In this document: one piece after another, positions 9,037-53,499 of the stretch | Numbering within the stretch: the stretch's first letter is position 1 | How the letters are laid out: every line of letters begins with the position of its first letter | Source: Armatimonadota bacterium | Lineage (GTDB): Bacteria > Armatimonadota > Fimbriimonadia > Fimbriimonadales > Fimbriimonadaceae | Assembly: GCA_018268255.1 (NCBI GenBank) | Contig: JAFDWX010000004.1 | Location: 62,001 to 126,000, forward strand | Reading direction: 5' to 3' | DNA length: 64,000 nucleotides | The notes under the pieces: model-generated | The model's database searches: none | What the model was told of the DNA's origin: nothing | Seen by the model: the letters and a program-made list of their open reading frames with translations, nothing else | Translations under genes and position numbers: made by a program

Positions 9037-9196
9037 TTCGTCCAGCACCCACCTCGTGCCAGAGAGACTTCAGGTGTCGGGGCATATGGAACAGGAAGCT
9101 ACTCACACTCGCTGGGCTTCCAGCCGCCCGGGCGGGATCGTGGGCGACGCGAAGCGTCGGGGTCCCACGATCGGGCAAGGCTTCGGGTGGGCGGCG
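9037..9196 (+). repeat. GC-rich structured intergenic element, copy 1
   Basis: The element lies between the convergent acyl-CoA dehydrogenase and glnA genes. It contains TTCGTCCAGCACC (9037-9049), an outer helix GCCGCCC/GGGCGGC (9123-9129 with 9189-9195), a middle helix GATCGTGGG/CCCACGATC (9136-9144 with 9164-9172) and an inner GACGC-GAA-GCGTC hairpin (9146-9158). A diverged copy at 53399-53499 keeps the helices through paired changes. It may act as a terminator, a structured RNA or a REP-like repeat. Confidence 0.7.
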
Positions 9197-9276
9197 CGCC
9201 TTCGAAAAAGCCAACACGTCAAAATCAAGATGCCACGGACAGTACATCCGTGGCATCGATTGACCGTTCAGCGGCC

Positions 9277-14109: not shown

Positions 14110-14904
14110 TTAATCGTCGCCTGTTTTGTCGAAGTTTTCGCTTAAGATGAGGTAGTCGAAGATCGTAATGGCTTGATCGCCATCGAGATCGGCTTCCCAC
14201 GGAGCGAATCCGTTCAGACCCACGTCTAGCCAATCCGGATCGTTGCTCGACTTATCGAAATAGTCGCTCAACACCAGATAGTCAAAGATTGTGGTGGAGT
14301 TATCGTTGTCGATGTCTCCGTTGATCGGCACCAGAGTGACTTCTACATCCCCTGCTCGGCAATCCACAATGGGCGACATCCGAAGGAACTTGCCGGTCTG
14401 GAACGAGATCTGCTTGATCCGCCAAGGCATCGGCAGCGTGAATGAATCATCGACCAATGTAATGGTCTGAGTAGTCGTGGCTTCGCCATGGCTCGGATCG
14501 CGAATCTCAAGATCCAGGGTGGACGGGATAATCGACGGATCGATTCCCAGCCAGTCCAAGTGGACCGTGTAAGTCGCGTTGCCACCCAGCGAAACCTCTC
14601 GCGAATGAGCGTAGTAGGGCTTCTCGGGATCGTAACCGATGGTAAGTTCTCTTGACCATGCTGACGCAAAGTCACTATCCGGAGGAACGTACCCAACCGT
14701 GAGTTCTCTCGAGAAGGCGTTGTCGTAATCGGGCGGCAACTGACTCACCAGAGCCACTCCGGAAACAGCCATCGAGAGTCGCACTGATGCTTTGATCGCG
14801 ATGATGGATCGGGCAGAAGTGGATGGATCCATTGTCCATCCACGAGTCAGACCGGCTGCGAGTACCGCAATCAAACTTATTCTTCGCGCAATTATTCTAT
14901 TCAT
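14110..14904 (-). CDS. Secreted protein with SRE repeats and dockerin-like C-terminus
   Basis: 264 residues from the ATG at 14904, 8 bp after AGGAG; a TTG at 14910 would leave only 2 bp. The N-terminus has a basic, hydrophobic signal (MNRIIARRISLIAVLAAG). Residues about 65-110 hold three related repeats, FSRELTVGY, WSRELTIGY and HSREVSLGG. Then comes a beta-rich domain (ATYTVHLDWLGIDPSIIPSTL...) and the C-terminal pair GDIDNDNSTTIFDYLVLSDYFD and ADLDGDQAITIFDYLILSENFD. It starts 27 bp after the stop of the Gly-rich protein, so both are likely in one transcript. Function unknown; probably a surface component. Confidence 0.8.
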   Translation of the reverse strand: MNRIIARRISLIAVLAAGLTRGWTMDPSTSARSIIAIKASVRLSMAVSGVALVSQLPPDYDNAFSRELTVGYVPPDSDFASAWSRELTIGYDPEKPYYAHSREVSLGGNATYTVHLDWLGIDPSIIPSTLDLEIRDPSHGEATTTQTITLVDDSFTLPMPWRIKQISFQTGKFLRMSPIVDCRAGDVEVTLVPINGDIDNDNSTTIFDYLVLSDYFDKSSNDPDWLDVGLNGFAPWEADLDGDQAITIFDYLILSENFDKTGDD

Positions 14905-21691: not shown

Positions 21692-23035
21692 TTAGTAAGC
21701 GTCGCCGGTGATGTCGAAGTTGGTCGAAAGGACCAGATAGTCGAAGATCGTGATCGATCCGTCACCATCAAGGTCAGCATCAGACACGTAGAGAGCGTCG
21801 CCCACTGAAGTATCGAATGCATCAGACAGCGTGACGTAGTCGAAGATGGTGACTGAGTCATCCTTATCGACGTCGCCGTTCAGCAGGGAGAAGTTGGCAT
21901 GGACCGTGCCGCCGCCTGCCGTGTTCACCACTCGACCAAGCCAGTGCGAGTACTTCACGCGAGCGTGATCTGCGCCCTCAAGCGGAACGGAATAGTTGCC
22001 GTTGTCATCGATTCCAGCCGTAACCGTTTTCAGGAGGTTGCTGCCGCTATCGTACATCTCGATATCGACGCTTGACGGGTAGGAGCCCGTCCAGTCGCCC
22101 AGGGCGACCTGACCGGTGAGGACCGGAGCCAAGGTTCCTTCGACCTTGACGCCGTCGATCAAGATGAACAGCGGCTGATCGCCAGGTCGTGGCGAAGCTG
22201 CCGGATCAAACATGCCGAACGTCGGATATCCATTGACGTAGGTCGCATCATCCATATCAAAAATGGGCAATGGTCCTGGATTTCCTCCGTCCGTTCGTTC
22301 CATCGAACACTTGACGTGGGTGCCCGTTCGTTCCATGACGATCTTGACCCACTGTCCGCTCGGTGCACCCACAACTGTAAACGGCGGCTTGGTGAAGTAG
22401 CCGGCCCAAGTCGCACCCGTGTTGTTCTGAGATCCGGTGAGCCATCCGCCAGCGCCAGCCGAAAGGAGCTGCTCGTCCTTGCCCTTGTAAAGGCGATAGT
22501 CGCGAGACGACGAACCTTCTCCGGTGAATTGGTAGAAGTAGCCTGAGCCTCCATCAGCCTGCATGAAGCAGCGACCACCATCGTGCTCGACGCCTGCACC
22601 ACCCAGCTGGGTCGATGTGCCGCTCAAGGTCACCTGATACCACATGTAGAACGACAGCTTATAATCGCCCTGGAGTCGACATTCTTTCGGCACGACCTGA
22701 ATGGCCTCGACCGAACGATTCTCCAGCTGGTCAGCATTGACTCGGATGTACAAAGCTTTCGTGTCCGTTTCGCCGGGAGCGGCTGGGATGGGAGTTCCAG
22801 GATCGGTACCCGTGTAGGTGAGCCCGTCCCACGGCCAAGCTACGCTGAAATCAAACGCAAACGCCGCGTGTGAGTCAAGCGGTACCAATGGAAGCGCCGA
22901 AACTGCATTTCGCTTCTTGACGATGTAGTTGCTCGACGTGTCGGTTGTAAAGTGATCCTCAAATACCACCGCCGAAAATGCACTGGCGGTTGCCCCAACC
23001 ACTGCCGCGAGAGCTGTAAGCCTCAAAATCTTCAT
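21692..23035 (-). CDS. Secreted protein with jelly-roll domain and dockerin-like C-terminus
   Basis: 447 residues. A signal peptide (MKILRLTALAAVVGATASAFS) precedes VVFEDHFTTDTSSNYIV, a typical opening of LamG/concanavalin-like domains, with beta-rich sequence to about residue 290 (GQWVKIVMERTGTHVKCSMERTDGG). A second beta-sandwich follows (LTGQVALGDWTGSYPSSVDIEMYD to RVKYSHWLGRVV). The C-terminus carries GDVDKDDSVTIFDYVTLSDAFD and ADLDGDGSITIFDYLVLSTNFD. The sandwich plus TIFDY tail is shared with the proteins at 2531 and 58528. A carbohydrate-binding surface protein is the best guess. Confidence 0.85.
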   Translation of the reverse strand: MKILRLTALAAVVGATASAFSAVVFEDHFTTDTSSNYIVKKRNAVSALPLVPLDSHAAFAFDFSVAWPWDGLTYTGTDPGTPIPAAPGETDTKALYIRVNADQLENRSVEAIQVVPKECRLQGDYKLSFYMWYQVTLSGTSTQLGGAGVEHDGGRCFMQADGGSGYFYQFTGEGSSSRDYRLYKGKDEQLLSAGAGGWLTGSQNNTGATWAGYFTKPPFTVVGAPSGQWVKIVMERTGTHVKCSMERTDGGNPGPLPIFDMDDATYVNGYPTFGMFDPAASPRPGDQPLFILIDGVKVEGTLAPVLTGQVALGDWTGSYPSSVDIEMYDSGSNLLKTVTAGIDDNGNYSVPLEGADHARVKYSHWLGRVVNTAGGGTVHANFSLLNGDVDKDDSVTIFDYVTLSDAFDTSVGDALYVSDADLDGDGSITIFDYLVLSTNFDITGDAY

Positions 23036-53398: not shown

Positions 53399-53499
53399 TT
53401 CGTCCAGCACCAATAGCGGGCGGCTGGAGGGCGGGATGATGGGCGGCGCGAAGCGACGGGGTCCCATCATCGGGAGTGGCCTCCGGGCCCAGCCGCCCC
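53399..53499 (+). repeat. GC-rich structured intergenic element, copy 2
   Basis: Shares TTCGTCCAGCACC (53399-53411) and the core GCGAAGCG-x-CGGGGTCCCA with copy 1 at 9037-9196. Outer helix GGGCGGCTGG/CCAGCCGCCC (53418-53427 with 53489-53498); middle helix GATGATGGG/CCCATCATC (53435-53443 with 53463-53471). It is about 54 nt shorter between the shared 5' box and the middle helix. It too lies between convergent genes. Confidence 0.7.

Follow-up and report, generated by a model that had tools for sequence, protein, structure and literature searches.

What are the two intergenic hairpins found in this window (the whole stretch of 64,000 nt analyzed here, positions 62001-126000 of contig 4 in a 3.19 Mb genome denoted G000), the stems of which differ in sequence and pair in both copies? 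The sequence-only reading, in which the two were originally noticed, proposed a structured RNA, a terminator family, or a REP/MITE-like repeat. When the sequence was re-read, both hairpins were found exactly where they had been placed, with the arms as given, and both lie, as claimed, between a plus-strand gene and a convergent minus-strand gene. We find that these hairpins belong to a previously undescribed, dispersed family of short folded DNA repeats. The family is real, multi-copy, constrained in structure, and restricted to a single bacterial lineage, in which it has spread in the past; among the three readings offered, the REP/MITE-like repeat fits best.

The two copies in the window and their relatives

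Both copies are on the plus strand. Copy 1 (9119..9200; E = 4.6e-8 within the window with the core covariance model R2, and matched by the covariance model R1 at 71117-71200 of contig 4) consists, from 5' to 3', of the first arm of the outer helix P1 (GCCGCCC, 9123..9129), the 5' side of a constant internal loop (GGGCGG, 9130..9135, near-invariant in alignments A1-A7), the first arm of the middle helix P2 (GATCGTGGG, 9136..9144), the apical helix P3 with a GAA loop (GACGC-GAA-GCGTC, 9146..9158), the constant 3' bulge of the apical module (GGGGT, 9159..9163), the second arm of P2 (CCCACGATC, 9164..9172), the 3' side of the constant loop (GGGCAAGGCTTCGGGT, 9173..9188), and the second arm of P1 (GGGCGGC, 9189..9195). 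In copy 2 (53418..53499; R2, E = 2.9e-9 within the window), the P1 arms are GGGCGGCTGG (53418..53427) and CCAGCCGCCC (53489..53498), the P2 arms are GATGATGGG (53435..53443) and CCCATCATC (53463..53471), the apical part is GGCGCGAAGCGAC (53445..53457), and the 3' side of the constant loop is GGGAGTGGCCTCCGGG (53472..53487). Folding energy alone would have missed the element: the z-scores on the two strands are -1.2 and -2.8 for copy 1, which is significant on one strand only, and -0.2 and -1.1 for copy 2, which is not significant.

In the sister species, the genes around copy 1 are in a different order, and the intergenic DNA is too diverged to be compared. Copy 2 is adjoined by a gene for a DUF4332 protein with helix-hairpin-helix similarity (PF14229; 53576-53980, minus strand). 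Elsewhere in the window, at 2547-2713, 14126-14319, and 21711-21877, there are six related, paired 68-nt repeats (direct family D1); these are apparent coding repeats, possibly, of dockerin-like domains.

The pattern GCGAAGCGNCGGGGTCCC, with at most two mismatches allowed, matches 26 sites genome-wide compared to none for the reversed control, and 25 of the 26 are true members of the element family. Two covariance models were used, namely, R1, built from 25 copies, and R2, built from 40 diverse copies after removal of the apical part; these detect 48-58 copies in G000. The further copies, whose absence the sequence-only reading had set as a refutation, do exist, both in this genome, with 58, and in its relatives. 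Altogether, the element is present in 16 of the 85 genomes of the bacterial family, in 8 genera, with 1 to 58 copies each; the 15 carrier species other than G000 have 1-31 copies (31, 18, 13, 12, and fewer), and congeners differ widely, from 58 copies to 1. All these counts are lower bounds, given that only the best candidates were scored and that several copies in G001 lie at contig ends (contigs C22, C63, C8, and C80), which suggests that the repeat breaks assemblies and that copy numbers are underestimated. Outside the bacterial family, none of about 200 further genomes from the phylum (291 searched) yielded a copy, with few candidates scored per genome.

Comparison with Rfam, at gathering as well as relaxed thresholds, produced chance miRNA-type matches only, and distant blastn searches of phage and plasmid collections produced no matches. 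Among 84,980 named genomes, the core pattern has six exact matches, all in GC-rich, unrelated groups, and these were judged to be due to chance, given that the P1 and P2 stems are missing from them. The combination of a tight structure with almost unconstrained stem sequences is such that ordinary repeat finders miss most copies. That the two hairpins in the window are themselves products of chance in GC-rich DNA is a reading to which the unremarkable folding energies would lend themselves, and to which we give virtually no credence: it is already refuted by the excess of pattern matches over the control, the 58 model matches, the restricted distribution, and the covariation described below, that is, by copies that are many and stems that pair.

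A constant loop between variable stems

In total, 172 copies were parsed across genomes, 99 of them non-redundant. The element is about 60-100 nt long and has the order, from 5' to 3', P1 arm, GGGGCRG, P2 with an optional apical module within, GGGNRTGGCYYCGGGC, and the other P1 arm. The constant part, common to several genera, is the asymmetric internal loop, with GGGGCRG on the 5' side and the consensus GGGNRTGGCYYCGGGC on the 3' side. The sequence-only reading had instead taken the apical core for the constant part; this module, composed of a C, helix P3, a small loop, and the GGGGT bulge, is found in most of the G000 and G001 copies and is missing from many others, including most of those in other genera. 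The 5' box TTCGTCCAGCACC, which had also been assigned to the element, is indeed present at both sites in the window but adjoins no other copy and was therefore rejected as a part of the family. The constant loop may be closed by a further helix, P1b, which is short and itself constant (GGGC with GCYY; 98.8% paired).

P1 and P2 are nearly free in sequence, with the pairing kept, and the stems pair almost perfectly along about 12 bp. There are 116 distinct inner 8-mers of P1 among the 172 copies (for example, GCCGCTTTGG through TTTTTTGTTCGG, CTGCGCATTTCAGG, TTATTCATTCGG), and no two copies within G102, or within G108, share a P1. The strands of the outer helix that appeared to be swapped between the two copies in the window are merely two among at least 116 distinct outer-stem sequences.

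The observation that stem changes preserve pairing, made originally on two copies, holds at a large scale across the family. In 73% of 77 copies, the score for pairing of P1 with its own partner is at least 8, compared to 9% when partners are swapped. In alignment A5, where P1 was anchored on the constant motifs only, all 18 pairs of P1 and P2 show two-sided changes in some copies; there are 237 doubly changed cells compared to 79.1 (sd 6.5) in shuffles, and the paired fraction drops from 89% to 27-49% when the partner is slid, with the caveat that the P2 counts are partly circular because P2 was cut with the aid of pairing. In an alignment of 99 copies less than 75% identical to one another, anchored solely on the constant motifs, the top 11 column pairs by corrected mutual information are all predicted helix pairs (0.54-0.22; permutation maximum, 0.12).

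If the functional form is a folded strand, G-T pairs are expected to exceed A-C mismatches on that strand. Counted as distinct contexts in 77 copies, G-T and A-C number 14 versus 1 in P2 (fixed columns) and 16 versus 7 in P1; under symmetric scoring of 172 copies, the respective counts are 9 versus 2 in P2 (p = 0.065) and 29 versus 16 in P1 (p = 0.07), adding up to 38 versus 18 distinct contexts on one strand. This strand bias is consistent in direction and modest in size, and it fits RNA and single-stranded DNA (ssDNA) alike.

The sequence-only reading held that covariation of this kind points to selection on structure. The covariation is real, but taken alone, it is weak proof of selection because template switching between the arms of a hairpin homogenizes inverted-repeat arms as well (PMC8604942). 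Some of the covariation may thus reflect copying between the arms while the DNA is replicated, and not selection.

Placement, spread, and orthologous sites

The copies are nearly confined to intergenic DNA. According to gene calls made with a simple codon-usage script, 45 of 54 G000 copies lie between two called genes (15 convergent, 12 sense-sense, 13 antisense-antisense, and 5 divergent); 6 more overlap a crude gene call, and 3 are without a neighbor. Convergent pairs are in excess (p = 0.002 versus the window's own spacing), and many copies are located 9-20 nt after a stop codon, in either orientation to the genes. GC-rich hairpins in such places could suggest a family of intrinsic (bidirectional) transcription terminators, but we consider this very unlikely. 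None of the copies was found to be followed by a T-tract in the sense of the gene; the stems that end in an A-tract have the tract on the wrong side; the elements occur in both orientations; and two of them are accompanied by separate terminators. In G108, the element abuts the terminator of a gene, and next to copy 1, the convergent glutamine synthetase gene has a good intrinsic terminator of its own, with a T-rich tail (9229-9257, minus strand; GATGCCACGG...CCGTGGCATC).

Across 158 copies, no base preference was found in the five bases outside P1 and, hence, no GTAG-type foot. There is no sign of target-site duplication, flank-to-flank direct repeats being not above the control; the same holds for direct repeats of the arms in the flanks, and two apparent arm repeats in G104 were dismissed because they occur at the control frequency. 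No promoter-like site was found at the copies and no recurring neighbor gene, the largest clusters of neighbors being secreted repeat/dockerin-like and pseudopilin-like proteins.

Subfamilies of the element bring their own P1 along to new places. Between G000 and G027, members of the CCCCGCCGG subfamily have an identity of about 94% (72 nt, L044 versus L057, counted by eye), and P1, P2, and a tail of 60 nt (85-90%) are common to the members in both genomes; the genomes belong to different genera, with a test protein only about 62% identical, and the copies have no neighboring genes in common. The tail, of approximately 60 nt (CTGCCCCTGAGCACGATCCGCCCCACC...), follows the hairpin in L041 and L044 of G000 and in L057, L063, and L068 of G027. 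At its end, the 3' arm is repeated (GGGCCGGCGGG), which gives the 5' arm two possible partners.

Most copies are single, and a few form inverted pairs 70-600 bp apart. The idea that such pairs are the two ends of a larger element was abandoned, given that the flank shared by L084 and its relatives is a separate repeat. This second dispersed repeat of G000, about 220-300 bp long, whose inverted ends measure about 41 nt (ACCACCCCGCCCTNCGGGCACCCCTCCGGCGGAGGGGAATT), adjoins several hairpins of the CCAGCCCC subfamily (L084:2620-2960, L054, L081, where one end is duplicated, L082, L086, and L051).

In genus g30, one copy is found in G102, G103, and G108 alike, between the same genes each time, and no element is present at the orthologous place in G104, G105, G106, and G031. 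When the orthologous copy is compared with that of G108, the 72-nt element aligns (79%) but the spacer does not, and P2 is rewritten from CCGATCCG/CGGATCGG to GGGATTTGG/CCAAATCCC with the pairing kept. In a second common copy (L176/L181), the one-sided stem changes between G102 and G103 belong to the G-T type; there is also one compensated change, from T-A to C-G (both read by eye). In L182 and L216 of G103, compared to L179 and L177 of G102, the P2 hairpin was lost by a short internal deletion, with P1 identical. Clean insertion boundaries were not found at sites L177-L179: either an identical P1 is present in G103, from which P2 was deleted, or the genes are ordered differently. The g30 genomes G102, G103, G105, and G106 also contain, at dozens of places each, a different REP-like unit with a length of about 41 nt (CCCCCTAACCCCCTCTCC...GGAGAGGGGG; found with the query 647-687 of L180:1308-2640).

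The few copies of g30, being retained at orthologous places, would also fit a functional RNA or DNA site. The element could then be a structured RNA or cis element under selection, acting in 3'-end stability, in processing, or through binding of a protein or ligand by the loop, with dispersal as a by-product. Structured RNAs typically combine covariation with a constant internal loop, P1b retains G-U/G-C alternatives, and the retention of elements with rewritten P2 stems next to diverging spacers is in line with this reading, as is the G-T excess, though ssDNA would give the same. We nevertheless consider it rather unlikely: the copies show no preferred orientation to genes, no promoter-like site, and no Rfam match; the two orthologous G103 copies have lost P2; and the range from 58 copies to 1 between congeners would be odd for a gene or a regulatory element.

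The G108 copy at the shared g30 site bears on the origin of the stems. One of its P1 arms, ATTTTTTGTT, is the same as the T-tract of the terminator of the preceding gene; the empty site in G105 has GGGATTTTTTGTTTTTTG, with a similar sequence in G106, and the complementary arm, AACAAAAAAT, is missing from the G105 site. This is the only hint that an arm can arise from the site through inverted copying, and it may be a T-rich coincidence. It speaks for an account in which the stems, as quasipalindromes, are continually homogenized, extended, or re-made by template switching, with only the loop being recognized and the pairing maintained without selection. Although the near-perfect stems and the documented homogenization of inverted-repeat arms agree with this account, we regard it as improbable because there is only one clear case, because arm repeats in the flanks do not exceed the control, and because subfamilies carry their P1 to new places; furthermore, copying alone would not yield an excess of G-T intermediates over A-C.

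Proposed mode of spread and comparison with known systems

The reading that we prefer, and consider probable, is that of a REP-like hairpin, dispersed and non-autonomous, that moved as a folded single strand and is recognized via its internal loop. The folded strand would be ssDNA exposed during replication or, else, RNA. A protein would read the constant loop and require only that the stems pair, so that the stems could drift by paired changes, some of which might have passed from one arm to the other through template switching. It counts against mobility that no element was caught moving and that no clean empty/filled pair with boundaries at P1 was found, as does the failure to find a target-site duplication, a base preference in the flanks, or a neighbor gene that recurs. 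Any service to the host, such as 3'-end protection or a barrier to transcription or replication, would be secondary and is unproven.

Classical REPs are associated with a Y1/TnpA-REP transposase, from which the putative mobilizer would differ. No member of the Y1 family (PF01797) was found in G000; among 61 genomes, this family was found in 1 of 9 carriers of the element (only G007) compared to 39 of 52 non-carriers (Fisher p = 0.0005, with phylogeny not corrected for). A RAYT/Y1 enzyme was therefore rejected as the mobilizer, being absent from G000 and from 8 of the 9 carriers examined. With considerable doubt, we suggest that the mobilizer might read the small asymmetric loop while the outer stem is written, or rewritten, from the DNA of the landing site by inverted copying, which would give each copy its private stem; if true, insertion would proceed differently from both HUH/REP and TIR/TSD transposition. 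Should the element be mobile, an enzyme that handles hairpins and is distinct from the REP transposase would be implied. The roughly 175 naturally occurring variants delimit precisely what the recognizing factor must read, namely, the loop, and what it ignores, namely, the stem sequence. The family also allows a direct test of whether covariation in hairpins is due to selection acting on the folded strand or to template switching at replication, which affects how covariation is read elsewhere.

Several known systems invite comparison. The attC sites of integrons are folded single-strand sites in which the stem sequence is poorly conserved and extrahelical features are conserved; the present element likewise joins variable stems with constant unpaired features. 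However, its copies are dispersed, whereas attC sites form cassette arrays, and the attC boxes GTTRRRY and RYYYAAC were not seen on inspection of the element consensus. Similarly to MITEs, the element is short, non-coding, multi-copy, and located near genes; unlike MITEs, it has a terminal inverted repeat private to each subfamily, no target-site duplication, and no parent transposon found in a search limited to PF01797.

In the REPINs of Pseudomonas, which are inverted REP doublets, compensatory changes are common in the paired spacer, and the ends are invariant and the inside variable (PMC3116915). The present elements resemble REPINs in being long hairpins with frequent compensatory changes; here, in contrast, it is the outer ends that vary and the inner junction that is invariant, and the copies are mostly single units. 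REPs proper are 20-50 (60) nt long, with a GTAG-type foot, and are associated with a Y1 transposase (PMC8266576). Like REPs and REPtrons (RAYT or TnpA-REP), the present elements are dispersed, extragenic, and palindromic, with tens of copies and a patchy distribution between species, and like a REP, each would be a single-strand hairpin whose internal bulge matters. Unlike REPs, they are 60-100 nt long and have free stems and a constant asymmetric internal loop, with neither a constant foot nor GTAG, and Y1 is absent from G000 and from all but one of the nine carriers examined. Because they depart from REPs in size, foot, and enzyme, and because the pattern of constant and variable parts is inverted, we call these elements REP-like rather than REPs.
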